NCBI RefSeq assembly: GCF_900142975.1 | Contig: NZ_LT670848.1 | Location: 3,100,001-3,164,000, forward strand | Source of the DNA: Salegentibacter salegens | GTDB taxonomy: Bacteria; Bacteroidota; Bacteroidia; Flavobacteriales; Flavobacteriaceae | DNA: 64,000 nucleotides | Direction: 5' to 3' | In this document: one piece after another, positions 16,076 through 45,021 of the stretch | Position numbering within the stretch: the stretch's first letter is position 1 | Layout of the letters: every line of letters begins with the position of its first letter | Translations under genes and position numbers: made by a program | The notes under the pieces: generated by a model | What the model was told of the DNA's origin: nothing | Database searches by the model: none | Seen by the model: only the letters and a program-made list of their open reading frames with translations

Positions 16076-17392
16076 TTAAAAAGCATTTGCAATAATTTGC
16101 TCATATAATTCTTGTTTACCGCTTAGTTGTTTTGGTTCTCCGAACTCTTTGGCTATTTTGCTAATTTCTTCCAGAGAAAGATCTCCATTTTCAAATTTGC
16201 TCCCGTTACCACTATCAAAAGAAGCGTAACGATCTTTTCTAAGCTTCTTATAGTTGGTGTTTTGCAGTACGTTGTCTGCAGCAATAAGTCCGCGTGCAAA
16301 AGCATCCATACCGGCAATATGAGCTATAAATTTATCTTCAAGATCAGTAGAATTTCTTCGAACTTTAGCATCAAAATTGATTCCTCCACCCTGAATTCCT
16401 CCTCCTTCAAGGATTACTAACATAGCTTCGGTTATTTCATAAACATCTATTGGAAATTGATCGGTATCCCATCCATTTTGATAATCACCACGGTTAGCAT
16501 CAATACTACCAAGCATATTTGCATCTACAGCGGTTTGTAATTCGTGCTGAAAAGTATGCCCTGCCAATGTAGCATGGTTCACTTCAATATTGATTTTAAA
16601 ATCTTTTTCCAATCCGTAATTCTTTAAGAATCCTATGGAAGTAGCAGTATCATAATCGTACTGGTGTTTTGTAGGCTCCATAGGTTTTGGTTCAATAAGG
16701 AAATTTCCTTTAAAACCTTGTTTTCTGGCGTAATCACGACAGGTAGTAAGGAATTGTGCCAAGTGATCCTGCTCACGCTTCATATCGGTATTTAAAAGGC
16801 TCATATAACCTTCCCGGCCTCCCCAGAATACATAATTCTCACCATTTAAAGCAATGGTCGCATCTATAGCGATTTTTGCCTGTGCACTGGCACGTGCAAC
16901 AACATTAAAATCGGGGTTAGTAGAAGCTCCGTTCATATAACGGGGATCGCTAAATAGGTTGGAAGTTCCCCACAATAATTTAATCCCGGTTTCTTGTTGT
17001 TTTTGTTTAGCATAGTCAACCATAGTTTCCATACGCTTTTCAAATTCAGAAAGCGAAGAACAGTCATCTACAACATCTATATCGTGGAAACAGTAGTAAG
17101 GAATTCCAAGTTTTTCAATAAATTCAAATGCAGCATCCATTTTATCTTTGGCGCGATCTATTACATTTTCCTTTTTGTCCCATTCAAAAGTTTCTGTCTC
17201 GGCACCAAAAGGATCGCCACCTTTGTTATTAAATGTATGCCAGTAAGCTACCGCAAATCTTAAATGCTCTTTAAGCGTTTTACCGGCTACCATTTTATTT
17301 TCATCGTACCATTTGTAGGCTAAAGGGTTTGAACTTTCCCTGCCTTCAAATTTAATTTTATCTATTCCTTTAAAAAATGTGTTGTTACTCAT
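16076..17392 (-). CDS. xylA: Xylose isomerase
   Basis: Interconverts D-xylose and D-xylulose in the cytoplasm, the first step of the isomerase pathway. 438 residues is normal for class II enzymes. Catalytic His103 and Asp106 lie in [11 protein letters not shown]. Metal-binding segments include [27 protein letters not shown] and [20 protein letters not shown]. The gene is last in xylE-xylB-xylA, 5 bp after xylB, and is followed by a clear terminator. Operon control is likely through the palindromic operator at 20520-20544. Confidence 0.98.
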
Positions 17393-17397
17393 AATTA

Positions 17398-18891
17398 TTA
17401 TTCTTTAATTTTAATATTCTGTTTCCATTCCTGGTAAATCTCCTGGTACTGCTTACTTAATTTAGCATCAGGCTCCATTCTTTCCAGGCACTTTAAGCTG
17501 GTAAAAGCTTCATCAAATTCCTTATAAAAGCCATAGCCTACAGCCGCACCACGGGCAGCACCTTCTGCGCCAGATGTGTTGTAAAGTTCTAAAGTGGTTT
17601 GGGTAGTGTTTACGAAAATTTCCCGAAAAACCGGACTTAAGAATAAATTGTCTTTTCCCGCTCTTACCACTTTTCCTTCCACACCAATAGATTGCATTAC
17701 CTCAAAACCATAATTCATGGCAAAAACAATCCCTTCGCAGGCAGATCTTATAAGATGCGCTGGCTGGTGAATGTTGTAGTTAAGGTTTTCTATGCCTGAA
17801 TTCACTTCTTTATTACTGAAAATACGCTCTACACCATTTCCAAAAGGATAAAAGCGAAGGCCTTTACTTCCCGGCTCGACTTTAGCAGCTTCTTCATTTA
17901 ACTTTTCATACGGAATAAGTTCTTCCCTGCCTACCGAAATTATTTTCCGTAACCATTGGTAAAGAATCCCTGAACCGTTGATGCATAAAAGAACTCCGTT
18001 GTGTTTAGCCTTTTCGGTATTATTCACGTGAAGAAACGTATTCACCCTGCTTTCAGGGTCAAATGTATTTTCTGCACTCACTGCATACATTACCGCTGAG
18101 GTTCCCGCAGTGGTTGCGATGTCTCCCGGTTTTAACGCATTAAGCGAAAATGCATTGTTAGGTTGATCTCCGGCCCTGTAGTTTATTTTAGTTCCAGGGT
18201 CAAGTCCTAATTCAGAGGCTATTGCAGCGCTTACTGTAGCCTGGTCTCCAAAACTCGGAACGATTTCCGGGATAAAATCTTCGGAAAGTCCCATTTTGTC
18301 TAAAACTTCGGTTGCTAATTTTCCTTTAGAAAAATCCCATAAGGCGGCTTCAGATAAACCTGAAGTACTTATTTGAGGAGTTTCTGAAAGTTTCGCCGCG
18401 ATATAATCTCCCGGCAACATCATAATAGAAGCCTTTTTGAAGTTTTCGGGTTCGTTTTCTTTAACCCACTTTAACTTAGAAGCGGTGAAATTTCCCGGGC
18501 TACCCAGAATCTGATTCTTGCTAATTTCTTCACCAATTGCTTTATAGGCTTCGTGTCCTATTTCTACAGCGCGGCTGTCACACCAAATAATAGAAGGCCT
18601 TACCGGGTTTAGCTTGTCGTCGGTTAGAACAAGTCCGTGCATTTGGTATGCAATACCAATTCCTTTAATTTTTTTAAGGTCTACGCCTTTTTTATCTCTA
18701 AGAATGCTAAATCCTTTCTTTACATTTTCCCACCAATCTTCTGGATTTTGTTCGGCCCAGCCAAATTGTGGGGCGGCGATCTCCATTTCAAATTCGGGAA
18801 CTTTAGCTGAAGCTATAGTCGTTCCTTTTTCGGCATCCAGTACCGATAATTTGATGGAAGAACTTCCTAAATCTATTCCTAAAAAATACAT
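17398..18891 (-). CDS. xylB: Xylulokinase
   Basis: Phosphorylates D-xylulose to D-xylulose 5-phosphate using ATP. 497 residues, FGGY kinase family: N-terminal phosphate loop [17 protein letters not shown], substrate region QMHGLVL and IIWCDSRA, catalytic Asp within [11 protein letters not shown], and C-terminal ATP site [16 protein letters not shown]. It is cytoplasmic. The gene lies 20 bp after xylE and 5 bp before xylA, so all three share one transcript. The product feeds the transketolase/transaldolase genes transcribed from the opposite side of the regulator. Confidence 0.97.
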
Positions 18892-18911: not shown

Positions 18912-20510
18912 TTATTTTGAAATCCAAATATTTTCCATTTCCTCGAGCGTTTTCTCTTTGGTTTCGGGTACAAATTTCCAAATAAATAAGCCGGAAAGGA
19001 TCGCCATTATTCCGTAGATCCAGTATGGAAAACCATTGTTAAACATGGCTATCAAATCAGAATTATTATTCATCATTGGGAAGGTCCACGATACCAATAG
19101 GTTTGCAAGCCATTGTATGGCTACAGCTACAGCCATAACCCCTTTTATAGAATTTGGGAAAATTTCAGATAATAATACCCAAACTACAGGGCCCCAGGAC
19201 ATAGCGAAGGCAGCGATGTAGAAAAGCATAAACATTAAAGCAGTGACTCCTGTTGTTTCCAGGTAAAGTGCGAAACCAAGGCCAATCATACTTAGCGCCA
19301 TAACAGCACTCCCAATCATCATTAATTTTTTACGGCCAAATTTGTCTACGGTAGAAATTGCTACTACGGTAAAAATCATATTAATGGCACCTACTATAAT
19401 GGTTTGTAGCATAGAAGCATCGGTTTCCATACCCATTCCTCTAAAGATTTCGGGGGCGTAATAAAGTACTACGTTTATACCCACAAACTGTTGAAAGATA
19501 GATAGGAGTAAACCTATTATAACCACGGTTCCTCCAAAATAAAGCCAGTGGGCCTTTTTCTTGCCAAAAGACTTTTTTATTTCTGCTAACACACCCGGGG
19601 CTCTTTCGGGGCCATTTAAATTGGTAAGTACTTTAAGTGCATCTTTTTCATTGCCTTTCATCACCTGGAACCTTGGGGTTTTAGGTACTAACAGTAAAGC
19701 AAGAAAGAAAATAGTAGCGGGGATTCCTTCAGATAGGAACATATATCTCCATCCTGTGGTGTTGATCCACATTTCTGCCTGACCCTGAACGATAAAATAA
19801 TTCACAAAATAAACCACCATCATCCCACTTACAATGGCCAGCTGGTAAAAACTAACCAATTTCCCCCGTATCTTTGGAGGTGCCATTTCAGCTATATATA
19901 AAGGAGCAAGCATGCTCGCCAACCCAACTCCCATTCCTCCAATGATTCTATACACAATAAATGCTGAAAGTGAATCTCCAAAGAAGATATTCATAGAATC
20001 AGGATAAGCTGAGCCTATCGCTGAAAGTAGAAATAGGGAGGCTGCTACTAATAAGCCATTTCGCCTACCAATTGAATTGGCTACATTGTCTCCCAGGGAA
20101 GCTCCAATAATACACCCTACAAGTGCACTACTAACCATAAAACCGAGGATAGAATTCTTTAAATTTTCAGTTAAAACGCCAGGTAGGCTTAAAAACTGAA
20201 AGTAATATACAGCACCGCCTATAAGTACAAAAAGCCCAATTATTAGATAGGCTTTTGATTTACTGAAAAATTTGAGAAGAAATGAGCTGAATAAAATTAC
20301 TAGCGCCAGCACGCAAATACTAATAATTACTTTAAACTGAAAAATAGCAGCTACTGCCAGGTCTTTATCGGTTTCTAATGCTCCAATAAAATAGTTTTCA
20401 AGAGCACCCACGGCTCCCGAAATTACTGCAGTATCATACCCAAACAATAAGCCTCCAAGACTTGCTACGATGGTTATTAAAACAATACCATTCTTATTTA
20501 ATTTTGCCAT
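18912..20510 (-). CDS. xylE: D-xylose:H+ symporter-like MFS sugar porter
   Basis: Inner-membrane sugar porter of the major facilitator superfamily. Family signatures include GGLLFGYDTAVISG (TM1), SIGRRNGLLVAA (loop 2-3), RIIGGMGVGLASMLAPLYIAE, QQFVGINVVLYYAPEI, and PETKEKTLEEME at the C-terminus. At 532 residues it is about 40 longer than E. coli XylE. The excess is an insertion between TM1 and TM2 (about 50-110) carrying two further hydrophobic segments (about 58-80 and 86-106). It is first in the operon with xylB and xylA, so xylose is the likely substrate. The start codon lies 9 bp from the predicted operator. Confidence 0.93.
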   Translation of the reverse strand: MAKLNKNGIVLITIVASLGGLLFGYDTAVISGAVGALENYFIGALETDKDLAVAAIFQFKVIISICVLALVILFSSFLLKFFSKSKAYLIIGLFVLIGGAVYYFQFLSLPGVLTENLKNSILGFMVSSALVGCIIGASLGDNVANSIGRRNGLLVAASLFLLSAIGSAYPDSMNIFFGDSLSAFIVYRIIGGMGVGLASMLAPLYIAEMAPPKIRGKLVSFYQLAIVSGMMVVYFVNYFIVQGQAEMWINTTGWRYMFLSEGIPATIFFLALLLVPKTPRFQVMKGNEKDALKVLTNLNGPERAPGVLAEIKKSFGKKKAHWLYFGGTVVIIGLLLSIFQQFVGINVVLYYAPEIFRGMGMETDASMLQTIIVGAINMIFTVVAISTVDKFGRKKLMMIGSAVMALSMIGLGFALYLETTGVTALMFMLFYIAAFAMSWGPVVWVLLSEIFPNSIKGVMAVAVAIQWLANLLVSWTFPMMNNNSDLIAMFNNGFPYWIYGIMAILSGLFIWKFVPETKEKTLEEMENIWISK

Positions 20511-20519: not shown

Positions 20520-20544
20520 TCTTATGGTTTATTTGACTACAAGT
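20520..20544 (-). promoter_or_regulatory. Predicted operator of the xylEBA operon (9-N7-9 palindrome)
   Basis: Arms TCTTATGGT and ACTACAAGT are separated by 7 bp; on one strand both halves approximate ACTTRTGGT. The same palindrome, with arms matching 8 of 9, occurs at 62947-62971 upstream of the HTCS gene, and similarity between the two places extends over about 50 bp. The site overlaps the -7 element and the likely transcription start of xylE, as expected for a repressor site. The adjacent NUDIX-type regulator is the natural candidate. Confidence 0.6.
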
Positions 20545-20570
20545 ATAGTTATTTTTTTTTATATTAGCAA
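20540..20570 (-). promoter_or_regulatory. Predicted xylE promoter
   Basis: On the minus strand, TTG (with the A before it giving ATTG) and TATACTTG are separated by 20 bp, close to the Bacteroidota TTTG and TAnnTTTG elements. The sequence is conserved at the HTCS promoter (62967-62996). Confidence 0.55.
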
Positions 20571-20656: not shown

Positions 20657-21376
20657 ATGAAAAACCCGTTGCCATTTCTACCCACAAATGATCTTTCTGC
20701 AGCAGAAGTTATGAGTTCTATAACTATTGACTGTTGTGTATTTAGTTTTGAAAAGGGATATCTGGAAGTTTTACTGGTTCAACACGGCGAAGGTATTAGT
20801 AAAGGTAAATGGGGACTTCCAGGGGGCTGGATTAAAAAAGAAGAGGATATAGATGTGGCAGCCGATAGATTACTTTCGGAATTAACAGGAGTAAAAGATA
20901 TTTACCTGGAGCAGGTTAGAACCTTTGGAAAGCCAGAACGATTTCCTCTTGGTAGGGTAATTACGATTGGATATTACGCTTTAATTAACAGGGAAGATTT
21001 TAATGTAAAAGCCGGTTTTACCGCTTCAGAAGCAAAATGGTACAGGATAAAAGATATTCCTGAGCTTATTTACGATCATAATGAAATTTTGCAGTCAAGT
21101 TTAAACCGTTTGCGCGGAAAAGTAAAACGTGCGCCCATAGGCTTTAACCTGCTTCCTGAAAAATTTACCCTGCTCCAGCTGATGCAGTTATATACTGAAA
21201 TTTTGGATGTTGAAATGGACAAAAGTAATTTCAGAAGAAAATTTTTAAAAATGAAACTTTTGCAAGAAGCTGGAGGTAAGCAAACCGGGGTTTCTCATAG
21301 AGCAGCCAAGCTGTATAGGTTTGATGAGGAAATTTACCAAAACCTAACCCGCAAAGGATTTAATTTTGAATTCTAA
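20657..21376 (+). CDS. NUDIX-domain winged-helix transcriptional regulator (NrtR/AraR-like)
   Basis: 239 residues: a NUDIX-fold ligand domain (about 20-150) and a C-terminal winged helix (about 160-239, with LLPEKFTLLQLMQLYTEIL). The NUDIX box begins correctly (GGWIKKEEDIDVAA) but the catalytic REUxEE part reads RLLSEL, so hydrolase activity is probably lost and the domain serves as a sensor. Related proteins of the NrtR group control pentose genes in Bacteroidota (AraR for arabinose in Bacteroides). The gene is divergent from xylEBA and first in an operon with an esterase, transaldolase and transketolase. Regulation of xylose genes, with a sugar or sugar phosphate as effector, is inferred. 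Confidence 0.88.
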   Translation: MKNPLPFLPTNDLSAAEVMSSITIDCCVFSFEKGYLEVLLVQHGEGISKGKWGLPGGWIKKEEDIDVAADRLLSELTGVKDIYLEQVRTFGKPERFPLGRVITIGYYALINREDFNVKAGFTASEAKWYRIKDIPELIYDHNEILQSSLNRLRGKVKRAPIGFNLLPEKFTLLQLMQLYTEILDVEMDKSNFRRKFLKMKLLQEAGGKQTGVSHRAAKLYRFDEEIYQNLTRKGFNFEF

Positions 21377-21409: not shown

Positions 21410-23356
21410 ATGAGCCTGGATTTAAAAAAGAAATTATTTGTAGTTTTATTCTTTATAAGTGTAGGATTCACATTTGCACAAATTAAGCTACCCCAATTAA
21501 TAAGTGATAATGTTATCCTTCAAAGAGATACAGAACTTAAACTATGGGGTTGGGTCTCTAATGGAGAGGTGGTGACGCTTCAATTTCAGGGAAAAAATTT
21601 CACAGCAAAGGCAAACGGCGATGGCAAATGGGAAATTAAACTTCCCGCGCAAAAAGCAGGAGGCCCATATACTATGACATTTAATGCCTCGAATAAAGTT
21701 GAGGTTAAAAATATTTTGTTTGGCGATGTGTATTTATGTTCAGGACAGTCTAATATGGAGTTGCCAATGAGTCGTTTATCTGATACCTATAGCGAGGAAA
21801 TAAAAAATGCCAATAATTCTAAAATCAGGCAATTTGAAGTGCCCGATGAATACGAATTTACCGGTGAAAGAGATGATTTTTCTTCCGGTTCCTGGAAAGA
21901 GGTTAACGGGACAAATATTCTGGAATTTTCTGGAGTAGCTTATTTTTTTGCAAAAGCGATCTTTGAAAAAGAAGCAGTACCTATTGGACTTATTAATTCT
22001 GCCCTGGGAGGTTCTCCTGTTTCGGCCTGGATGGATAAGGAATCCTTAAAGGAATTTCCGCAATTTTACGAAGAGCATTTGCAATGGGGAAATCAAACTT
22101 TTTTAGATTCAGTAGTCAATTCTGAACAAAAAGCAATTAATAATTGGTATGGAGATTTAGATAAAAAAGATACTGGTTTACAAGAAGAATGGTTTAAGCC
22201 TGATGTTGATAAAACTTCGTGGAAAGAAGTTGAAATTCCGGGATGTATTTCAGCAGAAGATAGAAATAATAGCGCGGGAGTGGCCTGGTTTTCAAAAACG
22301 GTAAATATTTCTCATTTACCGGAATCTGATACGGTGAAATTACATTTAGGAAGATTGGTAGATATGGATTATGCCTATGTAAACGGAAAACAGGTTGGAC
22401 ATACTGGTTATCAATATCCGCCTAGAAAATATAAGTTCGATGCAAAGCTATTAAAGAAAGAGGAGAATGAAATTGTAGTTCGCCTGGTAAACAATGGCGG
22501 GCCTACGGGTTTTATAAAAGATAAACCTTATCATTTAATTGTAGATAAAGATACACTTAATATTTCCGGAACCTGGCAATTTAAGCAGGCAGCAACAATG
22601 CCAAATACGCCGGGTCAAACTTTTATCAGGTGGAAATCGGGCGGACTTTATAACGCAATGATTGCTCCTATTACTAATTTTGAACTGAAAGGTGTGTTAT
22701 GGTATCAGGGGGAATCTGATACCGATGATCCAGATCTTTATGCGGAAACATTTCCGAAGATGATAAAAAGCTGGCGTGAGCATTTTAATGATCCCGACTT
22801 ACCATTTCTTTTTGTGCAGCTACCAAATTTTATGGAAGAAACCACAGAGCCCCAAGAAAGTAGCTGGGCTAAAATGAGAGAGGTACAACGAAATACGAAC
22901 CTTAATGTTCCTCATACCGGGATGGCCGTAACTATAGACCTTGGGGAATGGAACGATATTCACCCGTTAAATAAAAGAGACGTGGGGAATAGATTAGCGC
23001 TGGAAGCCAGGAAGCTAATTTATAAAGAAGATATTGTTAGTTCTGGTCCTGCTCCTTTAGATTGGAAAATCAAAGATGGAGCTGTTTTGATCAATTTTGA
23101 TAACCTGAAATCTGGCTGGAAATTTAAAAACGGAAAGAAACCTACCGGTTTTACCATTTCAGAAGATGGCAAAACTTTCTATAAAGCGAAAGCTGAAATA
23201 CTGGACGATAAAACTTTGAAGATTTATAATAACAAAATTAAAAATCCGGGTGTGGTAAGATACGCCTGGGCTAATAATCCCGGGAATGCCAATCTTTATA
23301 ACCAGAAAGATTTACCGGCAGTCCCATTTGAAATAGAATTAACTAAAGAAAAATAA
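21410..23356 (+). CDS. Secreted SASA/SGNH-family carbohydrate O-acetylesterase
   Basis: 648 residues with a Sec signal peptide (about 1-23, ending TFAQ). The esterase fold of the sialate-O-acetylesterase family is split by a beta-sandwich insert (about 260-395). The nucleophile is Ser114 in [10 protein letters not shown], the oxyanion region is [12 protein letters not shown] and the probable catalytic His518 is in WNDIHPLNK. Enzymes of this architecture (CE20 and relatives) remove acetyl groups from plant polysaccharides or sialic acid. Position in the xylose operon points to acetylated xylo-oligosaccharides. It is probably periplasmic. The exact CE family needs a profile search. Confidence 0.85.
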
Positions 23357-23373
23357 CTAAAACTAAACTTGAG

Positions 23374-24030
23374 ATGAAATTTTTTATTGATACAGCAAAT
23401 TTAGATCAGATTAAAGAAGCACAGGATCTGGGCGTTTTAGATGGAGTAACAACCAATCCATCTTTAATGGCAAAAGAAGGTATTACCGGAAAAGATAATA
23501 TTCTTCAGCATTACCTGGATATTTGTGAAATAGTAGATGGAGATGTTTCTGCAGAAGTTGTAGCCACAGATTTTGATGGAATTGTAAGTGAAGGGGAAGA
23601 ACTTGCCAAATTACACAAGCAAATTATTGTAAAAGTTCCTATGATTAAGGAAGGCGTAAAAGCCATAAAATACTTTTCAGACAAGGGAATAAAAACCAAT
23701 TGTACATTGGTATTTTCAGCCGGGCAGGCCTTGCTTGCGGCTAAGGCGGGTGCAACATATGTTTCACCATTCCTGGGTAGACTGGATGATATTTCTACCG
23801 ATGGATTAAATCTTATAGCAGACATCCGACTTATCTATGATAACTACGGTTTTGAAACTGAAATTCTTGCAGCGTCTATTCGCCATTCTATGCATGTGAT
23901 TAATTGCGCGAAAATTGGTGCCGATGTAATGACAGGCCCACTATCTTCTATAGATGGATTGTTGAAACACCCGCTTACAGATAGTGGACTTGCGAAATTT
24001 TTAGAAGATGCTAAATCATTTAATGTATAA
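23374..24030 (+). CDS. fsa: Transaldolase / fructose-6-phosphate aldolase-like protein
   Basis: 218 residues, the short transaldolase (TalB/FSA-like subfamily) form. [34 protein letters not shown] and [12 protein letters not shown] (with the Schiff-base Lys), and FLGRLDDI are characteristic. It would transfer dihydroxyacetone units in the non-oxidative pentose phosphate pathway; short members can be true transaldolases or fructose-6-phosphate aldolases, and sequence alone does not settle this. It lies 17 bp after the esterase and 3 bp before the transketolase N subunit, so it serves xylulose-5-phosphate breakdown. Confidence 0.93.
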
Positions 24031-24033
24031 ATT

Positions 24034-24879
24034 ATGGATATTAAAAAATTAGAAGATTTTGCTACCCAGGTTCGCCGGGATATTTTAAGGCAGGTTCATA
24101 AAGTGAATTCGGGTCACCCCGGAGGTTCACTGGGCTGTACAGAGTTTTTTACCGCTTTGTACCAGGGCGGAATTATGGAACATAAACCCGAGTTTAATAT
24201 GGACGGAAAAGAAGAAGACCTTTTCTTCCTTTCTAACGGTCATATTTCACCGGTTTTTTACAGTGTTTTAGCCCGTAGCGGTTATTTTCCTGTAGATGAA
24301 TTAAATACTTTTCGCCTTATAGATTCCAGGTTACAGGGGCACCCAACAACGCACGAAGGCCTGCCGGGAATTCGTGTCGCTTCAGGTTCACTGGGACAGG
24401 GAATGTCGGTCGCTCTTGGTGCCGCACAAGCAAAAAAGTTAAATAAAGATAATCACCTGGTATTTTCACTTCACGGAGATGGAGAATTACAGGAAGGTCA
24501 AAACTGGGAAGCCATTATGTATGCTGCCGGAAATAAAGTTGATAATATTATTTCAACGGTAGACGTAAACGGCCAGCAGATAGACGGAAGTACAGAAAAC
24601 GTTTTGCCAATGGGTAATCTAAAAGCCAAATTTGAAGCTTTTGGCTGGGATGTTATGGAGATTGAAGATGGAAATAATATGCAACAAGTCATTGATGGTT
24701 TAAATGAAGCTAAAACCCGAACCGGAAAAGGAAAACCGGTTTGTGTACTAATGACTACCATGATGGGGAACGGTGTAGATTTTATGATGCATACCCACGC
24801 CTGGCATGGTAAAGCGCCTAACGACGAACAGTTGGAAAACGCACTTTCTCAAAACCCGGAAACTTTAGGAGATTATTAA
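24034..24879 (+). CDS. tktA: Transketolase, N-terminal (thiamine-diphosphate) subunit
   Basis: 281 residues, forming the ThDP-pyrophosphate-binding half of a two-subunit transketolase. GHPGGSLGCTEFFTALY, RVASGSLGQGMSVALGAA and the GDGELQEGQNWEA motif (GDGX-NN type) are clear. With the next gene it makes the enzyme that moves two-carbon units between xylulose 5-phosphate and aldose phosphates. The split into two genes is standard in many bacteria and archaea and is not a frameshift: both products have complete domain ends, and 46 bp or more separates them. It is cytoplasmic. Confidence 0.96.
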   Translation: MDIKKLEDFATQVRRDILRQVHKVNSGHPGGSLGCTEFFTALYQGGIMEHKPEFNMDGKEEDLFFLSNGHISPVFYSVLARSGYFPVDELNTFRLIDSRLQGHPTTHEGLPGIRVASGSLGQGMSVALGAAQAKKLNKDNHLVFSLHGDGELQEGQNWEAIMYAAGNKVDNIISTVDVNGQQIDGSTENVLPMGNLKAKFEAFGWDVMEIEDGNNMQQVIDGLNEAKTRTGKGKPVCVLMTTMMGNGVDFMMHTHAWHGKAPNDEQLENALSQNPETLGDY

Positions 24880-24886
24880 AAAATAA

Positions 24887-24927
24887 ATTTCCGCCGCAGT
24901 TTATCCCGCTTTTTTCGGGACGGAAAT
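24887..24927 (+). promoter_or_regulatory. Intercistronic hairpin in front of the transketolase C subunit
   Basis: Outer stem ATTTCCG (24887-24893) pairs with CGGAAAT (24921-24927). Inner stem TCCCG (24904-24908) pairs with CGGGA (24916-24920) around a T-rich loop. The outer stem covers the ATG at 24926, which argues for the ATG at 24944 as the true start. It could tune expression of the second subunit or be a small repeat. Confidence 0.45.
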
Positions 24928-24943
24928 GACAAAGAAAATTAGA

Positions 24944-25897
24944 ATGAAAACATATACAGATACAGGAAAAAAAGATACCCGCTCGGGATTTGGAGCGGGA
25001 CTGACCGAACTTGGCCGAACTAATCCTAATGTAGTAGCACTTTGTGCCGACCTAGTGGGATCGCTTAAAATGCAGGATTTTATAGATGAAAATCCAGAGC
25101 GTTTCTTCCAGGTGGGAATTGCTGAAGCCAATATGATGGGAATGTCCGCCGGTCTTACCATTGGCGGAAAAATACCATTTGCCGGGACTTTTGCCAATTT
25201 TGCAACCGGAAGGGTTTACGACCAGATTCGTCAGTCTATCGCCTATTCAGGAAAAAACGTTAAGATTTGTGCTTCGCACTCTGGAGTGACTTTGGGAGAA
25301 GACGGAGCAACCCACCAGATCCTGGAAGATATAGGTCTTATGAAAATGTTACCGGGAATGACGGTAATTAATACCTGCGATTTTAACCAGACCAAAGCTG
25401 CTACTTTAGCGATCGCCGAATACGACGGCCCGGTTTACCTTCGATTTGGAAGGCCAAAAGTGGCCAATTTCACCCCAGAAGATCAGAATTTTGAGATTGG
25501 GAAAGCCGTTCAACTTTATGAAGGGGAAGATGTAACCATAATCGCTACAGGACATTTGGTTTGGGAAGCGATACAGGCGGCACAAAAACTTTCAGAAAAA
25601 GGGATTAGCGCCGATGTGATTAATATCCACACCATAAAACCTTTAGATGCAGAAGCCATAATCAAATCGGTTAAGAAAACTGGGTGTGTGGTTACTGCAG
25701 AAGAACACAACTTTCTTGGCGGACTTGGAGAAAGTGTAGCCCGTACTTTAGCTGAAAACAATCCTGCACCACAAGAATTTGTGGCTACCCAAGATACTTT
25801 TGGAGAAAGCGGTACACCAGAACAGCTCTTTGAAAAATACGGTTTAAATTCTGAGTCTATTTTAAAAGCTGCTGAAAAAGTAATTAAAAGGAAATAA
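24944..25897 (+). CDS. tktB: Transketolase, C-terminal subunit
   Basis: The pyrimidine-binding and C-terminal half of transketolase: TRSGFGAGLTELG, QVGIAEANMMGMSAGL (with the conserved Glu that activates ThDP), SHSGVTLGEDGATHQ, and the C-terminal domain with VTAEEHNFLGGLGES. I place the start at 24944 (MKTYTDTGKKDTRSG), giving 317 residues as in relatives. A start at 24926 would add six residues but its ATG lies in a hairpin stem. It is last in the five-gene pentose operon; a long-loop terminator follows at 25916. Confidence 0.95.
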   Translation: MKTYTDTGKKDTRSGFGAGLTELGRTNPNVVALCADLVGSLKMQDFIDENPERFFQVGIAEANMMGMSAGLTIGGKIPFAGTFANFATGRVYDQIRQSIAYSGKNVKICASHSGVTLGEDGATHQILEDIGLMKMLPGMTVINTCDFNQTKAATLAIAEYDGPVYLRFGRPKVANFTPEDQNFEIGKAVQLYEGEDVTIIATGHLVWEAIQAAQKLSEKGISADVINIHTIKPLDAEAIIKSVKKTGCVVTAEEHNFLGGLGESVARTLAENNPAPQEFVATQDTFGESGTPEQLFEKYGLNSESILKAAEKVIKRK

Positions 25898-27216: not shown

Positions 27217-30200
27217 ATGAAAATAAATTTACTAAATCTTCCTTACCTAACTAGAGCAATGGTTTTTGGGCTATTGATTCAACTTCTGTTTTCTTCTTCG
27301 GTTTATGCTAATGATAATAAGCCAAAAAGTGGGAGTGAGCAACAAACTATTAGGGGAACGGTTACTTCATCAGAAGATAATCTTGGAATACCTGGGGTGA
27401 ATATTCTTGTAAAGGAAATTCCTAATCGTGGTGCTGTTACCGATATGGAAGGAAATTATACCATTGAGGCCCCGGCTGATGCTACTTTGGTTTTCAGCTT
27501 TATAGGCTATAAAACCATTGAAAGAAAAGTTAATGATCAATCGGAAATTGATGTGATCATGGATCCAGATCAGGATGCATTAGATGAAGTTGTAATTGTT
27601 GGTTATGGAGAACAAAAAAGAGAGACTGTTGTTGCTTCTATCGCCGAAGTTAGTGGTGAGGTATTAGAAAGAGCAGGTGGGGTAACAAATATTGGTGCAG
27701 CCTTAACAGGAAATGTACCCGGGGTTATTACCAGTGCCAGTACAGGCATGCCTGGTGAAGAGGATCCCAGAATTTTAATTCGTGGGCAGAGTACATGGAA
27801 CGATTCTTCTCCACTTATTCTGGTAGACGGAGTAGAGAGGCCTATGTCTAGTGTGGCAATAAGCTCGGTAGAATCAATTTCAGTCTTAAAAGATGCTTCT
27901 GCAACAGCTGTTTATGGAGTTAGAGGGGCTAACGGGGTTATTCTTGTGACTACAAAAAGAGGTGAAAAAGGTGAAGCAATAATAAGAGCAAGAGTAAATA
28001 CTACCATGAAAAGGCCATCTAAATTACCGGGTAAGTATGATGCTTTAAGGGTTCGGAACGAGGCAATTGAGAATGAACTGGGTTTAAACCCAAGTGCCTG
28101 GAACGATTATATGCCATTAGATATCATTGATAAATACAGAAATCCGGCAGACCTGGCAGAAAGGGAGCGATATCCAAATGTAGACTGGGCAAATACGCTT
28201 TTTCGTGATTACACAATGTCTTATAACGCAAACGTAAATGTAAGTGGAGGAACCGATTTTGTAAAGTATTTCACCACTGCAGATTTCCTTAGAGAAGGGG
28301 ATTTAATGAAGCAGTACGATAATAACAGAGGCTATGAGCCGGGGTATGGATTTAATAGGTTAAATGTAAGAGGTAATCTAGATTTTCAAATTACTCCTTC
28401 AACCTTATTCCAGGTAAACCTAGCCGGTTCGCACGGTGTGAAGAAAAGTCCGTGGGGAGCTACCGGAGATGAGTACAGCATGTGGGTGGCAGCTTATAGT
28501 ACTGCGCCAGATGTTTTTCTTCCAAGATATTCAGATGGAGCCTGGGGCTATTATGCGCCAAATGAAGGTGCGGCTACCAACTCGGTGAGAGTTTTGGGAA
28601 TAAGCGGAATTCAGTATATGACTACTACCCGTTTAACTACAAATTTCACTTTAGACCAGGATCTTGATATGATTTTAGATGGGCTTAATTTTAACGGTAC
28701 CATTGCATTAGACAATACTTTTGTTGAAGCAGATCGTGGAATTAATGATTTGTATAATGATACACAGGAAAAATGGATAGACCCAGAGACAGGTACTGTT
28801 CTATACCAGCAGGCGTATGATCCCAATAGCCGTTTTGATTTTCAGGAAGGTGTAAAATGGTCTACAAGTCCCGGTGCTGTACAGGATTGGTCTTCACATA
28901 GAAAATTATTCTACCAGTTACAACTTCGCTATGCCAAGAATTTTGACGGCCGTCACGATGTTTCTGTAATGGGACTTATGAATAGAAATGAAAATGCAAC
29001 CGGAAGTCAGATACCACGATATAGGGAAGATTGGGTTTTTAGAACTACTTATACCTTAGATAATAAGTACACTTTTGAATATAATGGTGCCTATAACGGT
29101 TCTGAAAAATTTAGTCCTGAAAACCGATTTGCTTTCTTTTCTTCTGGAGGTGTAGGCTGGATTTTATCCCGGGAAAGTTTCCTTGATTCTGCTTCATTCT
29201 TAGATATGCTGAAGCTTAGAGGTAATTACGGTGAAATTGGAGATGATAATGTAGCAGGAAGATTTCTATACATGACACAGTGGGGCTATAATGGCCAGTC
29301 CAGGATGGGGGTAACCGGCGAAGCGGCCGAGCAAAGTCCGTATACCTGGTATTCAGAAGAATCTGTAGGAAACCCAGATGTTTCCTGGGAGAAGGTTAAG
29401 AAAACCAATATAGGAGTTGATTTTGGATTCTTTGATGGATTTATTGAAGGTAGCTTCGACTATTTTATAGATGAAAGAACCGATATTTTAATTAATGGAG
29501 GGGATAGAGCCATACCGTCATATTTTGGTACCGAAGCACCAGTTGCAAACCTGGGACATGTGAGAAATGAAGGTTACGAATTTGATATTGATTTAAGCTA
29601 CAGGTTTGAAAATGGCTTGAGATTATGGTCAAATTTCAATATGACTCATTCTCAAAATGAAGTTATAGATGCAGATGACCCTTCATTGTTACCAGCCTAT
29701 CAACAAAACGCAGGTTTGCAAATTGGGCAGGCATATTCACACGTTACTCCGGGTTATTACAATACCTGGGATGATCTTTATGCAAGTACCATTCACAATG
29801 CTAACGATAACCAAAAATTACCGGGTAACTATCATATTACAGATTTTAACGGAGATGGAGTAATAGATGCTTACGATAATATTCCATTTGGTTTTACCGG
29901 TAATCCTCAAAATACCTATAACGCTACTTTTGGATTTGACTGGAAAGGTTTTAGCAGTTACGTACAGTTTTACGGTGTAAATAATGTAACCCGCCAGGTG
30001 GTTTTAGGAAGTTTAAGTAGTCAAAATCACGTGGTTTATGAAGAAGGAAGTTACTGGTCTAAAGATAACTTTAATGCAGATTCACCCGTGCCAAGATGGC
30101 TTACTACGCCAAGTGGATATAATGATGCCAATAGGTATATGTTTGATGGTTCTTACTTAAGACTTAAAAATGCAGAAATAGCCTATACTTTCGATGCTGG

Positions 30201-30384
30201 CTCTAGTTTGGTAGATAAGTTAGGAGTAAAAAACCTAAGGGTTTTCCTAAATGGAAATAACCTCTTCTTATGGTCTGATATGCCAGATGACAGGGAATCG
30301 AATTTTGCTGGAACGGGTTGGGCTTCCCAGGGAGCTTATCCAACCGTAAGTAGATACAACTTAGGGGTAAATATTACTTTTTAA
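27217..30384 (+). CDS. xusA: SusC-like TonB-dependent outer-membrane transporter 1 (xylan locus)
   Basis: 1055 residues. Signal peptide to about residue 31, then a CarboxypepD_reg-like domain (about 43-120, TIRGTVTSSEDNLGIPGVN), a TonB-box-like DEVVIVGYGEQKRE, a plug domain (PRILIRGQSTWNDSSP, VLKDASATAVYGVRGANGVI), and a 22-strand barrel ending in YNLGVNITF. It forms the outer-membrane channel that imports oligosaccharides captured by the SusD lipoprotein encoded 11 bp downstream. It is first in the operon, behind the putative HTCS site. Gene order SusC-SusD-SusC-SusD-lipoprotein-GH10 equals the xusA-E/xyn10A core known in Prevotella and Bacteroides; symbols are given on that basis. Confidence 0.95.
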   Translation: MKINLLNLPYLTRAMVFGLLIQLLFSSSVYANDNKPKSGSEQQTIRGTVTSSEDNLGIPGVNILVKEIPNRGAVTDMEGNYTIEAPADATLVFSFIGYKTIERKVNDQSEIDVIMDPDQDALDEVVIVGYGEQKRETVVASIAEVSGEVLERAGGVTNIGAALTGNVPGVITSASTGMPGEEDPRILIRGQSTWNDSSPLILVDGVERPMSSVAISSVESISVLKDASATAVYGVRGANGVILVTTKRGEKGEAIIRARVNTTMKRPSKLPGKYDALRVRNEAIENELGLNPSAWNDYMPLDIIDKYRNPADLAERERYPNVDWANTLFRDYTMSYNANVNVSGGTDFVKYFTTADFLREGDLMKQYDNNRGYEPGYGFNRLNVRGNLDFQITPSTLFQVNLAGSHGVKKSPWGATGDEYSMWVAAYSTAPDVFLPRYSDGAWGYYAPNEGAATNSVRVLGISGIQYMTTTRLTTNFTLDQDLDMILDGLNFNGTIALDNTFVEADRGINDLYNDTQEKWIDPETGTVLYQQAYDPNSRFDFQEGVKWSTSPGAVQDWSSHRKLFYQLQLRYAKNFDGRHDVSVMGLMNRNENATGSQIPRYREDWVFRTTYTLDNKYTFEYNGAYNGSEKFSPENRFAFFSSGGVGWILSRESFLDSASFLDMLKLRGNYGEIGDDNVAGRFLYMTQWGYNGQSRMGVTGEAAEQSPYTWYSEESVGNPDVSWEKVKKTNIGVDFGFFDGFIEGSFDYFIDERTDILINGGDRAIPSYFGTEAPVANLGHVRNEGYEFDIDLSYRFENGLRLWSNFNMTHSQNEVIDADDPSLLPAYQQNAGLQIGQAYSHVTPGYYNTWDDLYASTIHNANDNQKLPGNYHITDFNGDGVIDAYDNIPFGFTGNPQNTYNATFGFDWKGFSSYVQFYGVNNVTRQVVLGSLSSQNHVVYEEGSYWSKDNFNADSPVPRWLTTPSGYNDANRYMFDGSYLRLKNAEIAYTFDAGSSLVDKLGVKNLRVFLNGNNLFLWSDMPDDRESNFAGTGWASQGAYPTVSRYNLGVNITF

Positions 30385-30395
30385 AATAGCTTGTT

Positions 30396-32294
30396 ATGAA
30401 AAATTATATAAAAAACATTATAAAGTTTAGTCTGGCAATCATTGCTTTAGTTTTCATATCATCTTGTGAAGATTACTTAGACAGGGAAGATGAATCTATA
30501 GTTTCTGAAGAAGAAGCTTTTAAGAATTTCACCAATTTTCAGGGTTATACTGAAGAATTATATCACTGTATTCCAAATTTCACCAATGCATACTGGACCA
30601 ACTCCTGGAATTGGGGTGATGATGAGATTGAATCTACCGCCAGAGATTTTCACTTTATCAATAAAATTGAAAATGGAAACTTTTGGGGCTGGCAACACGA
30701 GTTTGACGGTTGGGATGCGGGTTGGATGAACAGGAACGATGCATCTACGAATGACCCTAATGATGAGCGTATGAGTAAAGATTTATGGACATTAGGCTGG
30801 TATGGAATTAGAAAAGCCAATTTAGGCCTTGCAAATATGGACCGGCTTACAGATGCTACCCAGGAAGAAAAAGACTTAATTAGAGGGCAGTTATTGTTCT
30901 TTCGAGGATGGTTTCATTTCCAATTTATCCAATATTTTGGAGGATTGCCGTATATAAATGAAGTATTACCAAGTGATGAACAACTTCAATTACCTCGCTT
31001 AAGTTACCACGAGGCTGCTGAACTTGCTGCCCAGGATTTTCGAGCTGCCGCAGATTTGCTTCCTGTAGATTGGGACGAAACAGATGCCGGAAGTGCAACA
31101 TTGGGAAAAAATCAATTGCGTATCAATAAAATAATGGCGCTTGGTTATTTAGGGAAGAATTATCTTTGGGCTGCAAGTCCACTAATGAACCAAGAATCTA
31201 CCGGAAGTGCAACATATAATACCTCTTACGCACAGAAATCAGCTGAGGCTTTTGCTGAATTACTTAATCTAACCGAATCTGTCGAAGCAGATTATTCTTT
31301 AGTACCATTTTCAGATTATCATCTAAACTTTTATACTTCAGGCCAAAACTGGCAGATTCCGGGTAGTACCGAGGCTATTTTTAGAGGCCCTTATTTTGGA
31401 GCGCATGGGTCTACTTATGGTACTGCAAAACAATATCAACCTTCCCCAATTTTAACCGATGGAGATGTGAAATTCCTTCCTACGGCTAATTATGTAGATT
31501 TCTACGGGATGGCCAACGGATTGCCAATTGACGATATCACCCAACCCGATCCGGAGTCTGGTTATGATCCTGAATATCCCTGGAAAGACCGTGATCCAAG
31601 ATTTTATAATGACATTGTTTATGATGGGGTTCGTACCGTGCAGGGTTCTATGCCAGCTGATGAAGAGTTTAACCGTTACGCCAATCTATTTACCGACGGG
31701 AGTTATAGAAATATAAGAACTGGTAGTAGAACAGGATATATGCTTTACAAGTTTATCCCAATGACTGCCAATAAATATGATGAGGGTTACGGTTATGGAA
31801 ACAGCTTAAATATCCATTTACCTTGGATGCGACTTTCAGATGTATATCTAATGTATGCTGAAGCTGCTGCCCAGGCTTATGGATCGCCTACAGGCCAGGT
31901 TTCTGGCTATAGTAAAACAGCTGTAGATGCTATTAATTTTGTAAGAGACAGAGCCGGTGTTGGTCACGTTGCAGATGAATATTTAGGATCTCTAGACGCT
32001 TTTATGACCGAAATGCGCAGGGAGCGTGCAGTAGAGCTGGCTTTTGAAAGACACAGGTTTAATGATTTAAGACGTTGGTTATTACTAACCGAGAGTCCAT
32101 ATACTTTAAAGAAATCTGTAGAATTTGATCGTGCTGGAGAACTTAATACCGATGATCCTTCACAAAACCGGGTTCTTAATTTAAGGGAAGAAATTATTCT
32201 GGAAAGAAACTTTAGTAGCAAGCATTACTGGCTACCCTTAAAAAATGTGGACGTAAATATGTATTTGGAATTTAGTCAAAATCCTGGCTGGTAA
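30396..32294 (+). CDS. xusB: SusD-like surface glycan-binding lipoprotein 1
   Basis: 632 residues with a lipoprotein signal (lipobox ending at Cys24, VFISSCEDYL). The helical SusD fold includes GQLLFFRGWFHFQFIQYFGGLPYINEVL, the N-terminal SusD-like part, and the RagB/SusD C-terminal segment with ERAVELAFERHRFNDLRRW. It is anchored in the outer membrane and caps the partner transporter, binding xylo-oligosaccharides. It lies 11 bp after xusA and 31 bp before the second SusC gene. Confidence 0.95.
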   Translation: MKNYIKNIIKFSLAIIALVFISSCEDYLDREDESIVSEEEAFKNFTNFQGYTEELYHCIPNFTNAYWTNSWNWGDDEIESTARDFHFINKIENGNFWGWQHEFDGWDAGWMNRNDASTNDPNDERMSKDLWTLGWYGIRKANLGLANMDRLTDATQEEKDLIRGQLLFFRGWFHFQFIQYFGGLPYINEVLPSDEQLQLPRLSYHEAAELAAQDFRAAADLLPVDWDETDAGSATLGKNQLRINKIMALGYLGKNYLWAASPLMNQESTGSATYNTSYAQKSAEAFAELLNLTESVEADYSLVPFSDYHLNFYTSGQNWQIPGSTEAIFRGPYFGAHGSTYGTAKQYQPSPILTDGDVKFLPTANYVDFYGMANGLPIDDITQPDPESGYDPEYPWKDRDPRFYNDIVYDGVRTVQGSMPADEEFNRYANLFTDGSYRNIRTGSRTGYMLYKFIPMTANKYDEGYGYGNSLNIHLPWMRLSDVYLMYAEAAAQAYGSPTGQVSGYSKTAVDAINFVRDRAGVGHVADEYLGSLDAFMTEMRRERAVELAFERHRFNDLRRWLLLTESPYTLKKSVEFDRAGELNTDDPSQNRVLNLREEIILERNFSSKHYWLPLKNVDVNMYLEFSQNPGW

Positions 32295-32325
32295 CCACAT
32301 TGTGTTCAATTTAAACATATAGAGA

Positions 32326-35300
32326 ATGAATATTATAAAATTTAAAGTAGTTTTTTGTGCACTAATTGCCTTGATACCTTTTATAGGGATCGCACAAACA
32401 TCTGAAGATATTGATGTTGAAGCCATCGTAAGAGGTAAAGAAGGAAAGCCTTTAGTGGGCGCTACCGTTAGGGCAGAATCCGGTGACGCTGTGGTTACAG
32501 ATTCCATAGGGAGTTTCTCAATCTCGGCCGGCATGTATTCTAGTTTAGCTGTAGAAGCTGGGGAGTATGAACCGAAGACAGTGGTAGTTACCCCGTTTTT
32601 GGATAATATAAGCCTTAATCCTGCTGAAGGTTACGAAGATGTAAATGTTGCATTTCGTAAAGTAGAAAAGAGAAATTTAATAAGTGGTGTCTCTGTGGTA
32701 AATCTGGAGGAATTAATGGAGAAGAATTATAATACAGGTACCCTGGAAAATATGGAAGGTTTTGCCAATGGTTTCCACGGAAATATTTGGGGAATGGACC
32801 AGTATTTAGTGCTTATAGACGGGATTCCTCGAGATGCAAGTAGCATAATGCCTACAGAAATAGATCAAATTAGTTTCTTGAAAGGTGTTTCGGCAGTTGC
32901 TCTTTATGGTAGTAGAGCTGCAAAAGGTGTAGTGCAAATTACCACTAAAAGAGGAAAGATACAGAAGCAGGAAATTGATGTTAGGGTAAATGCAGGAATG
33001 TATGTTCCAAAAAGTTATCCAAAATATCTTGGCTCTGCAGAATATATGAGCCTTTATAATGAAGCAAGGGCAAACGATGGTTTAAGTCAGCGTTATGATG
33101 ATGAAACTATTTACAACTATGCTGTTGGTGATAACCCATACAGGTACCCCGATGTAAACTATTATTCTTCAGATTATTTGCAGGAAACTTACAACAGGTA
33201 TGATGCCACCGCACAAATTGCTGGAGGTAATGAAACCGCCCAATATTATACCAACCTGGGCTTTTATTCCGCAGGTTCACTACTAAATTTTGGAGAAGCT
33301 GAAAATAACAGAACCCAGAGATTTAATATTCGTGGTAATGTAGATATTGATATAACCGAAACCTTATATGCTACGGTAAATGCATCAGCTGTATATTACA
33401 ACGGTTGGGGAGTAAATACAGATTACTGGGGAGGTGCTGCCAGTTTAAGACCAAACCGATTTTCGCCATTAATTCCTACAAGTATGATTGAGGAAAGCGA
33501 TGAGAATTCTATGCAATTTGTAAACAATAGCAATCTTATAGATGGACAATATCTTTTAGGAGGAACTCAGCTAGACCAGACCAATCCTTTTGCCGCAATT
33601 TATTCCGGGGGAAGTAATAATTTTACCAGTAGACAATTTCAATTTAATACCGGGATTGGCGCAGATTTAGGAAATCTGGTCGAGGGATTGAGTTTTCATT
33701 CAAATTTTGGAGTAGATTATTCCACTTCTTACAACCAGTCATATAATAATGAGTACGCTGTATACGAGCCAAGCTGGACAAATTATGATGGGGGAGATTT
33801 AATTGCAGGTTTAACTCAATATGGTCAGGATGCCAGGTCTGGAGTACAAAATATAACCGATAGCTGGTATAGACAAACAATTTCGTTTTCAGGTCAATTT
33901 AATTACGAGACCAAAATAGAGGAAGATCATAATGTTTCAGCGATGCTTATCGCCAACGGATTTCAACAATCTATTTCAGAAGAATATCACCGTACCAGTA
34001 ATGCCAATTTAGGCCTTTACCTGGGTTATGATTATTTAGATAAATATTTTGTGAATTTTAGTGGAGCCCTGGTACATTCAGCAAAATTACCGGAAGGGAA
34101 CCGTCAGGCTTTTTCTCCAACCTTTACTTTAGGATGGCGCTTAAGCGAAGAAAATTTCCTTCAGAATTCAACGGTATTTGATGAGTTGAAACTTACCGCT
34201 TCCGCAGGTATTTTACATACCGATATTGATATACAGGATTACTATTTATATGAAAGTATTTATACCCAAACCGATGGGGCCTGGTTTAACTGGAGGGATG
34301 GTGCTTTAAGCCGCTCTACAGATTCCAGAAGAGGGCAGAACGATGATCTAACTTTTTCCAAAAGAGAAGAAATAAATTTGGGAGTAGAAGCATCTTTATT
34401 TGATAATCTTTTCCAAGTTCAGGGTTCTGTTTTTGCTAATAGAATGACAGGCGGTATTGTACAGGCTTCTGTATTATATCCTAATTATTTTGAAACTGGA
34501 TGGCCAAACTCTTCTTTTATTCCTTATGTGAATTATAATGATGACCAACGGCTTGGGTTTGATTTTAGAGCAGATTGGAATCAGCAATTCGGAGAACTGA
34601 AAACTACACTTGGAGTGGTTGGTACTTATTATGAAACCAAAGCCACGAAGCGGGCCGAAATGTTTGAAGATGAATACCAAAACAGGAAAGACAATCCCTT
34701 AGACGCTATTTGGGGTCTTGAAAGCGATGGACTTTTTACAAGTGCTAACGAAATTGAGAATTCACCTTCCCAAAGTTTTGGGCAGGTAGCCCCGGGAGAT
34801 ATTAAATATATAGACCAAAATGGCGATGGGGTAATAGATAACCAGGACGAAGTCTATCTTGGTAAAGGTGGCTGGTTTGGTTCACCACTAACCTTAGGTG
34901 TGAATTTTACTGCTGAATGGAAAGATTTCACCTTTTTCGCTCTGGGAATTGGACGATTTGGAGCTCACGCTATGAAAAATAGTTCTTATTTCTGGATGGC
35001 TGGAGAAGATAAATATTCAATTGTAGCTCGTGATCGCTGGACGCCAGAGACAAGTGAAACTGCCACTTATCCCAGGTTAACTACCACTAATAGTAATAAT
35101 AACTTTAGAAATTCAGATTTCTGGCTTTATAGTACAGATCGTTTTGACCTGGCAAAAGTTCAAATATCATATAATTTACCTAAAGAATTATTTGCCCAAT
35201 CTTTTGTACAGGAATTAGGGGTATATGTAAATGGGGCTAATTTATTAACCGTCTCCCCAGAACGTGATATTTTAGAGTTGAGTGTAGGAAGCGCGCCTCA

Positions 35301-35340
35301 GAACAGATTTTATAACCTGGGCGTAAAAGCAATATTTTAA
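32326..35340 (+). CDS. xusC: SusC-like TonB-dependent transporter 2
   Basis: 1004 residues. Signal peptide to about residue 23 (GIAQ), a carboxypeptidase-like regulatory domain (about 28-105), a plug (LVLIDGIPRDASSIM, GVSAVALYGSRAAKGVVQITTKRG) and a barrel ending FYNLGVKAIF. The usual DEVVVVGYG TonB box is not obvious: the region reads YEDVNVAFRKVEKRN, so TonB contact may differ from the first transporter. It pairs with the SusD gene 20 bp downstream. Two divergent SusC/D pairs in one xylan locus suggest that different oligomers are imported. Confidence 0.95.
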   Translation: MNIIKFKVVFCALIALIPFIGIAQTSEDIDVEAIVRGKEGKPLVGATVRAESGDAVVTDSIGSFSISAGMYSSLAVEAGEYEPKTVVVTPFLDNISLNPAEGYEDVNVAFRKVEKRNLISGVSVVNLEELMEKNYNTGTLENMEGFANGFHGNIWGMDQYLVLIDGIPRDASSIMPTEIDQISFLKGVSAVALYGSRAAKGVVQITTKRGKIQKQEIDVRVNAGMYVPKSYPKYLGSAEYMSLYNEARANDGLSQRYDDETIYNYAVGDNPYRYPDVNYYSSDYLQETYNRYDATAQIAGGNETAQYYTNLGFYSAGSLLNFGEAENNRTQRFNIRGNVDIDITETLYATVNASAVYYNGWGVNTDYWGGAASLRPNRFSPLIPTSMIEESDENSMQFVNNSNLIDGQYLLGGTQLDQTNPFAAIYSGGSNNFTSRQFQFNTGIGADLGNLVEGLSFHSNFGVDYSTSYNQSYNNEYAVYEPSWTNYDGGDLIAGLTQYGQDARSGVQNITDSWYRQTISFSGQFNYETKIEEDHNVSAMLIANGFQQSISEEYHRTSNANLGLYLGYDYLDKYFVNFSGALVHSAKLPEGNRQAFSPTFTLGWRLSEENFLQNSTVFDELKLTASAGILHTDIDIQDYYLYESIYTQTDGAWFNWRDGALSRSTDSRRGQNDDLTFSKREEINLGVEASLFDNLFQVQGSVFANRMTGGIVQASVLYPNYFETGWPNSSFIPYVNYNDDQRLGFDFRADWNQQFGELKTTLGVVGTYYETKATKRAEMFEDEYQNRKDNPLDAIWGLESDGLFTSANEIENSPSQSFGQVAPGDIKYIDQNGDGVIDNQDEVYLGKGGWFGSPLTLGVNFTAEWKDFTFFALGIGRFGAHAMKNSSYFWMAGEDKYSIVARDRWTPETSETATYPRLTTTNSNNNFRNSDFWLYSTDRFDLAKVQISYNLPKELFAQSFVQELGVYVNGANLLTVSPERDILELSVGSAPQNRFYNLGVKAIF

Positions 35341-35360
35341 AAATTTAAATATAAAAGGAA

Positions 35361-37094: not shown

Positions 37095-37119
37095 TTAGTT
37101 TAATTATAAAGAACAGAAA

Positions 37120-38151: not shown

Positions 38152-38171
38152 AATTAAAAAATAAATCGATT

Positions 38172-40310: not shown

Positions 40311-40394
40311 ACCCTTTATAATAAATGAATATAACCAGTAAATGATTGCGTTGCTATCCGTTTAAATTTTAATTGTGTGTGATTTTTACTGAAT

Positions 40395-40488
40395 AGTTCT
40401 CCTAACTCAAAAAGTCTGGATACCGGTTGGATTAGCAACGCTTACCCGGTATGAATTAGCCTTTTTTGGATGTTAGGAGAACTTTTTT
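40395..40488 (+). terminator. Long-loop structured terminator or attenuator inside the xylan locus
   Basis: A perfect 12-bp stem (AGTTCTCCTAAC at 40395-40406 with GTTAGGAGAACT at 40472-40483) is followed by TTTTTAT. The 65-nucleotide interior pairs further: CAAAAAG with CTTTTTTG, and ATACCGG with CCGGTAT. It splits the import/Xyn10A part from the other enzyme genes, so the latter may need read-through or their own promoter. Confidence 0.7.
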
Positions 40489-40546
40489 ATAAAAATAATT
40501 GTAAATTATAATCAACCTTTTTCCTGGGTTTTTAATATTAACTGTT

Positions 40547-41701: not shown

Positions 41702-41724
41702 CTCTGAAAAATTAAAATTTAGAA

Positions 41725-43659: not shown

Positions 43660-43690
43660 CACAGGTTCCTCCTCCTGTAAAATACTTAAA

Positions 43691-45016: not shown

Positions 45017-45021
45017 AAAAT

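Follow-up and report, generated by a model that had tools for sequence, protein, structure and literature searches.

The question raised by this locus is why the gene of a xylan sensor should carry the same element in front of it as a xylose operon elsewhere in the window (the whole 64,000-nucleotide stretch of DNA analysed here, from the marine flavobacterium Salegentibacter salegens). Hybrid two-component sensors (HTCS) determine the choice of polysaccharides that Bacteroidota attack, and the literature covered here seldom deals with how the sensors are themselves expressed. The initial annotation had described a block of about 50 bp common to 20520-20570 and 62947-62996, and had proposed a regulon in which an intracellular pentose signal also sets the level of the sensor. 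The boldest reading compatible with the data is that the xylan HTCS belongs, in several flavobacterial genera, to the regulon of the Nudix-type regulator XylR, forming a xylose-gated nested feed-forward AND gate rather than a constitutive sensor, and that this arrangement was acquired at two distant HTCS genes; we give this reading a probability of roughly 0.6. That the element itself is the operator of a repressor XylR, placed at xylE-xylB-xylA and at the xylan HTCS gene, is a proposal in which we have good confidence. The features are collected in the table.

Table. Features of the window discussed in the text (positions are those of the window)
Feature	Position	Strand	Basis
Putative XylR operator, xylE promoter; ACTTGTAGTCAAATAAACCATAAGA in xylE direction	20520..20544	-	Sequence, pattern scan, conservation
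-7 element TATACTTG; CTTG common to it and the upstream half of the operator	20540..20547	-	Sequence; TTG-N20-TA pattern in relatives
xylE promoter, -33 TTG, within TTGCTAA 20564-20570	20568..20570	-	Sequence; pattern in relatives
Putative XylR-type operator, HTCS promoter; ACTTGTGGTCACAGAAACCATAAGT in HTCS direction	62947..62971	-	Sequence, pattern scan, conservation
HTCS promoter, -33 TTG, within TTGCTAA 62990-62996	62994..62996	-	Sequence; alignment; pattern in relatives
xylA, xylose isomerase	16076..17392	-	NCBIfam TIGR02630 above cut-off
xylB, FGGY kinase; best NCBIfam match xylulokinase TIGR01312, 286 bits (cut-off of 380 not reached)	17398..18891	-	
xylE, D-xylose MFS transporter, first in xylE-xylB-xylA	18912..20510	-	NCBIfam NF007484 above cut-off
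xylR, NrtR/AraR-family regulator, Nudix and winged helix; likely operator binder	20657..21376	+	
Genes after xylR: SASA-type esterase, transaldolase/fructose-6-phosphate aldolase, transketolase halves	21410..25897	+	
Xylan utilisation locus by content: two SusC/SusD pairs, two GH10, several GH43, GH8, GH95, GH97	27217..58635	+	
HTCS: periplasmic propeller sensor, histidine kinase, receiver, AraC-type HTH	58795..62856	-	Pfam; matches to hybrid two-component structures
araR, arabinose-type NrtR-family regulator, neighbour of HTCS, other operator class	63172..63861	-	257 bits to BtAraR

The xylR gene is divergent from xylE, and its product, whose closest named relatives are from Salegentibacter, contains the domains PF00293, PF21906 and PF19368, all above cut-off; it thus has the Nudix-like domain joined to a winged helix that is expected in the NrtR/AraR family of Nudix-related regulators. 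The xylan locus additionally encodes glucuronoyl-esterase-like and other esterases, and by this gene content the HTCS is assigned to xylan. Propeller sensor, kinase, receiver and AraC-type HTH were found in one chain in the window's HTCS and in the HTCS proteins of L178, L135, L181 and L183. On the other side of the HTCS gene, araR is divergent from a locus of arabinan type past the window edge; this locus encodes SusC/D, arabinofuranosidase, GH43 and GH127 and extends to araB, whose match to ribulokinase is above cut-off. The AraR protein matches the Bacteroides arabinose regulator BtAraR with 257 bits versus 162 bits for XylR; a third member of the family is encoded elsewhere in the genome. 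The earlier description of both nearby regulators as paralogous NUDIX-type proteins was thus correct. A long inverted repeat at 63043-63122 (ATCCTTTTGGGAG ... CTCTCAAAAGGAT, with a T-run on the + side) lies between araR and HTCS and is kept in five of six aligned Salegentibacter copies. Elsewhere in the window, two identical 1366-bp stretches (5508-6873 and 7949-9314) carry Mutator-family transposase genes in inverted orientation and flank a NIPSNAP-domain gene (7233-7886).

The block is present at both places, and the gene-oriented xylE and HTCS copies can be aligned along some 60 bp if three 1-bp gaps are allowed, a score reached by 0 of 2000 shuffles. Within it lies a 25-bp operator, the 9-N7-9 palindrome that had been noted from the sequence: ACTTRTGGT-N7-ACCAYAAGT fits the HTCS copy exactly and the xylE copy with two mismatches. 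With up to three mismatches a third, weak match appears in the window at 35387-35411 (0.09 matches expected per window; three matches in 0 of 100 shuffles). Across the 4.01-Mb genome (G000), the xylE and HTCS copies are the only sites with at most two mismatches (reversed control 0). At up to three mismatches the real pattern gave 4 sites and the reversed control 11, and sites weaker than two mismatches are therefore noise on their own. The candidate at 35387, with its three mismatches and its position inside a SusD coding start, was rejected, as was one at genome position 3758798, since the reversed control beats the pattern at that stringency. A looser palindrome, ACTTRTRGT-N7-ACYAYAAGT with at most two mismatches, performed hardly better than its reversed control (70 versus 62 sites in 21 genomes). 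It was therefore replaced by a gene-oriented consensus, CTTGTRGTCA-N4-AACYATWAG, built from sites of about a dozen genomes, and a lone two-mismatch site, as at two of the HTCS genes, is accepted on the strength of its position.

The initial annotation had named conservation at orthologous promoters as its own check, and the operator passed it, standing at xylE, xylB or xylA starts in ten genera (in G030 with two mismatches) and upstream of 9 of the 10 HTCS orthologs described below. A search of 397 Flavobacteriaceae genomes with the gene-oriented consensus at one mismatch or fewer returned 28 sites (19 exact) in 21 genomes, versus 7 for the reversed control, while XylR (E up to 1e-70) was found in 23 genomes. 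Both were present in 18 genomes of 12 genera, XylR only in 5, a site only in 3 and neither in 371 (Fisher p 7e-24, uncorrected for kinship; some of the association follows from the way the pattern was built). Two of the five XylR-only genomes (G094, G117, G238, G292, G332) have weaker sites in place, with three mismatches at xylE in G117 and two at HTCS in G332, and in the three site-only genomes (G013, G018, G334) each site lies inside an ORF. Among 148 genomes added after the pattern had been made, a site was found in 8 of 10 with XylR and in 1 of 138 without; six of the eight positives come from genera used for the pattern, and G291 and G301 do not. Within Salegentibacter, XylR (at least 72% identical) occurs in 6 of 15 genomes, and sites with at most two mismatches in all six of these versus one of the nine others.

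As expected of a xylose regulator of the NrtR family, xylR adjoins xylE, xylB and xylA in the window and in G257, G241, G111, G301, G291, G428 and G030, and adjoins xylB and/or xylA in G040, G297, G144, G364 and G399; G143 has only a XylE-like gene of 34% identity near xylR, and no xyl genes were found near xylR in the examined stretches of G100, G117, G196, G094, G127 and G352. Other contexts of the operator are SusC genes in G127 and G352 (one genus) and a gene row of GH88, GH43 and pectin type in G336. The G143 site is about 1 kb from a SusC gene, with an AraR-type match of one mismatch in the same upstream region. A match near the transaldolase operon of G241 (L140) was rejected as regulatory, having two mismatches and the opposite orientation.

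Both Nudix proteins had been put forward as candidate binders, and of the two XylR appears to be the best-fitting owner of the operator. AraR is encoded directly upstream of the HTCS gene, is paralogous to XylR and has an operator of the same N7 geometry, so that it might itself bind the HTCS site, the likeness to the xylE site being then a family-wide similarity. We consider this improbable. The published BtAraR motif (PMC4666351) provided the AraR-type site AAGTGT-N7-ACACTT, which is found exactly upstream of araB (L037:19749-19767, genome position 3177749) and with one mismatch in the divergent region of araR and the arabinan SusC gene (L037:6054-6072, genome position 3164054), a placement repeated in relatives; between araR and HTCS, no match has fewer than 3 mismatches of 12. 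The xylE and HTCS operators share a core TRGT-N7-ACYA, unlike the GTGT-N7-ACAC of AraR-type sites, and operators of this type also stand at HTCS genes that lack a labelled AraR within the examined stretch (L181, L183, L178). The part of the proposal that named XylR therefore stands, whereas AraR has another operator class. Nineteen bases at 40588-40606 are identical to the arabinan-SusC AraR-type site and lie about 40 bp inside a predicted GH10 ORF (40547-41701), reflecting either a coding coincidence or a misplaced start.

The two regulators also differ in the recognition helix, where the residue at BtAraR position 180 is arginine in AraR and serine in XylR; in the BtAraR-DNA complex, Arg180 intercalates next to the operator core (PMC4666351). 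We compared this residue with the operator class found within 400 bp upstream of 65 family members, many of them close relatives and thus not independent. Of the 40 proteins with Ser, Pro or Ala180, 30 have an XylR-type site (at most one mismatch of 16 in 29 of them; one of the 30, G143, also has the AraR-type match mentioned above), none is classed as AraR-type and 10 have neither. The 25 proteins with Arg180 had AraR-type sites in 16 cases (13 with at most one mismatch of 12), weak XylR-type sites with three mismatches in 2 and neither in 7. Of the ten site-less Ser/Pro180 cases, seven represent the second gene of a tandem xylR pair, and the others (G094, G117, G100) lie away from xyl genes. 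GTGT-N7-ACAC together with Arg180 characterises AraR, whose own upstream site has one mismatch, and neither feature is found in XylR and its operators. By sequence, the XylR-type sites have the N7 core of NrtR/AraR family operators, as in the semi-palindromic half-sites of the BtAraR-DNA complex (PMC4666351, Table 2). The operator class appears to follow residue 180, which would make this a naturally occurring switch of specificity within the NrtR family. The tandem xylR duplications occur in G127, G352, G589, G593, G619, G623 and G639, with copies 70-73% and 63-66% identical to the window's XylR. In G274, from another family, a related regulator with Arg34 and Ala180 coexists with four sites of the XylR operator class (L121:4953, L122:4217 and 5919, L123:4603). 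Three of them are near sodium:solute symporter, GH16, CBM48 and SusC-like genes and the fourth, with two mismatches, is near a sigma-54 regulator and MazG; the DNA code is the same and the sugar perhaps another. Autoregulation by the HTCS was rejected, since the operator occurs at xyl genes also where no HTCS-ortholog match was obtained, as in G040 and G241 (with two candidates scored per genome, a match may have been missed). A Crp-type site was likewise rejected, the published motif wwwTATGTTnTAnAACATAwww being different (PMC3878776).

The palindrome overlaps a promoter. Bacteroidota promoters consist of a -33 TTG and a -7 TAnnTTTG, and the TTG-N20-TA sites match this pattern. The TTGCTAA -33 region and the overlap of the palindrome with the -7 element are real at both places. 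The idea of one shared promoter module needs modification: TTG starts 27 bp before CTTG at xylE and 26 bp before it at HTCS, and the two promoters are therefore offset by 1 bp. The pattern was examined in 32 sites, comprising 24 of the 28 consensus sites (the three located in ORFs were omitted, as was G364, which nearly duplicates G144) and 8 placed by position (xylE of G257, G030 and G117; transaldolase of G241; HTCS of G251, G254, G332 and G399), with near-identical Salegentibacter copies excluded (xylE of G250, G251, G254 and G256; HTCS of G250 and G256). TTG starts 26-29 bp before CTTG in 28 of the 32 sites, versus a mean of 1.3 in mononucleotide shuffles, and TA is at -4 in 23, versus 5.8. 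One might then suppose that the shared block is merely a strong -33/-7 promoter with an incidental palindrome, given that half of the operator is the -7 end and that TTG-N20-TA is conserved; this seems to us very improbable, as conservation extends to the downstream half AACYATWAG, which lies beyond the promoter elements, and 25 of the 28 sites with at most one mismatch are in XylR genomes. For a XylR operator, the double role of the upstream half-site as -7 end accounts for the unequal halves, and the likely mechanism is then repression through occlusion of the -7 element of a TTG-N20-TA promoter.

An ortholog of the window's HTCS (E up to 1e-250) is present in 5 of the 15 Salegentibacter genomes, and all five have a perfect 25-mer upstream; six aligned upstream regions, two of them from a single genome, show variation in the spacer and flanks and none in the arms. 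In G256, araR and HTCS are on different contigs, each with a copy of the 25-bp operator (L126:5610, L127:6141), probably after a rearrangement within the intergenic region. With E up to 1e-270, the search of the 397 genomes yielded five further HTCS orthologs, 47-68% identical and all in XylR genomes; it scored no more than two candidates for each genome and may have missed some orthologs. The nine orthologs with an upstream operator belong to five genera and have it in the gene's orientation, starting 82-206 bp before the inferred start: six sites are exact, G336 has one mismatch and G332 and G399 have two. The G144 ortholog has no site upstream, though XylR is encoded in this genome and its xylB carries the operator. 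Markov resampling, 3000 times for each 300-bp upstream region of the five orthologs outside Salegentibacter, never produced a site with at most two mismatches. An exact site with xylE-like promoter spacing was also found at two full-length HTCS genes of one genus (G100, G336) that are 28% identical to the window's and have GH43, SusC-like, SASA esterase and GH3 genes as neighbours.

The HTCS promoters have a peculiarity of their own. TA is at -3 in all seven xylan-HTCS orthologs of the promoter set (in Salegentibacter also at -5) and at -4 in none, and TTG is at -26 in five of the seven (-25 in G336, -27 in G030); among the remaining sites only G196 xylB has TA at -3. This common trait suggests descent rather than repeated copying. 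The shift of the -7 TA relative to the operator would also suit a situation in which XylR binds a real operator with no effect on HTCS level, the promoter having been copied ready-made from a xyl promoter and being in effect constitutive, as is described for the low-level promoter of the B. thetaiotaomicron HTCS gene BT1754 (PMC3404733). We regard this as unlikely: the arms are kept at HTCS in five genera and at the 28%-identical HTCS genes, which suggests selection.

As for the signal, Arg86 and His131 are unchanged in the XylR clade, in which position 34 is His and position 49 mostly Trp. Since it is C4 that distinguishes D-xylose from L-arabinose, the change at residue 34 is suggestive. In BtAraR, Arg34, Arg86 and His131 hold arabinose, with Arg34 at O4 (PMC4666351). 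XylR-like proteins beside xylA/xylB in other families (L202, L208), which fall in other branches, keep Arg34 and Arg180, so that His34 alone is no proof of xylose as the effector, and we dropped it as such. Free intracellular D-xylose is our best guess for the inducer.

Taken together, conservation and co-occurrence with XylR support the proposed regulon. In the mechanism that we infer, a XylR dimer on CTTGTRGTCA-N4-AACYATWAG would cover the -7 element of the TTG-N20-TA promoter and block transcription, and free intracellular D-xylose would release it from the operator. As the same operator precedes xylE-xylB-xylA and the xylan HTCS, the monosaccharide would set the amount of the oligosaccharide sensor, and the HTCS, so adjusted, would in turn activate the xylan locus. 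The arrangement suggests that the amount of an outward-looking sensor is governed by sugar that has already entered the cell. If the repressor acts on the sensor gene, hysteresis and priority would be expected, with xylose-experienced cells more sensitive to xylan. The operator pattern is usable for predicting xylose regulons in flavobacteria.

The operator had been taken to be of an undescribed kind, which does not hold for the regulator type: NrtR-type AraR and XylR of Bacteroides have been predicted, with XylR (BT0791) as xylose regulator (PMC3878776), and AraR has been characterised (PMC4666351). Nothing in the text passages covered, including those of PMC12125979, PMC11253607, PMC6989115, PMC10766802, PMC4855328 and PMC3243724, describes control of an HTCS gene by a monosaccharide repressor. 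The regulator type and the joint control of structural genes by AraR and an HTCS are accordingly known, and what we did not find described in these sources is a polysaccharide sensor gene as the target. Among the closest counterparts, BtXylR with its xylRBAE regulon is likewise a NrtR-family Nudix regulator beside xylose genes and their predicted controller (PMC3878776, PMC4666351), but the passages covered name no HTCS gene in that regulon, whereas the Salegentibacter operator stands at one. BtAraR (BT0354; 5BS6, 5DD4, 5DDG, 5DEQ) resembles XylR in sequence family, domain make-up, half-sites around N7, Arg86 and His131, and differs in its operator GTGT-N7-ACAC and in Arg34 and Arg180, which are His34 and Ser/Pro180 in XylR. 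AraR and the HTCS BT0366, which jointly control arabinan genes, combine a monosaccharide repressor and an oligosaccharide-sensing HTCS in one pathway, as here; they converge on the structural genes (PMC5061871), whereas in Salegentibacter the putative repressor site is on the sensor gene itself.
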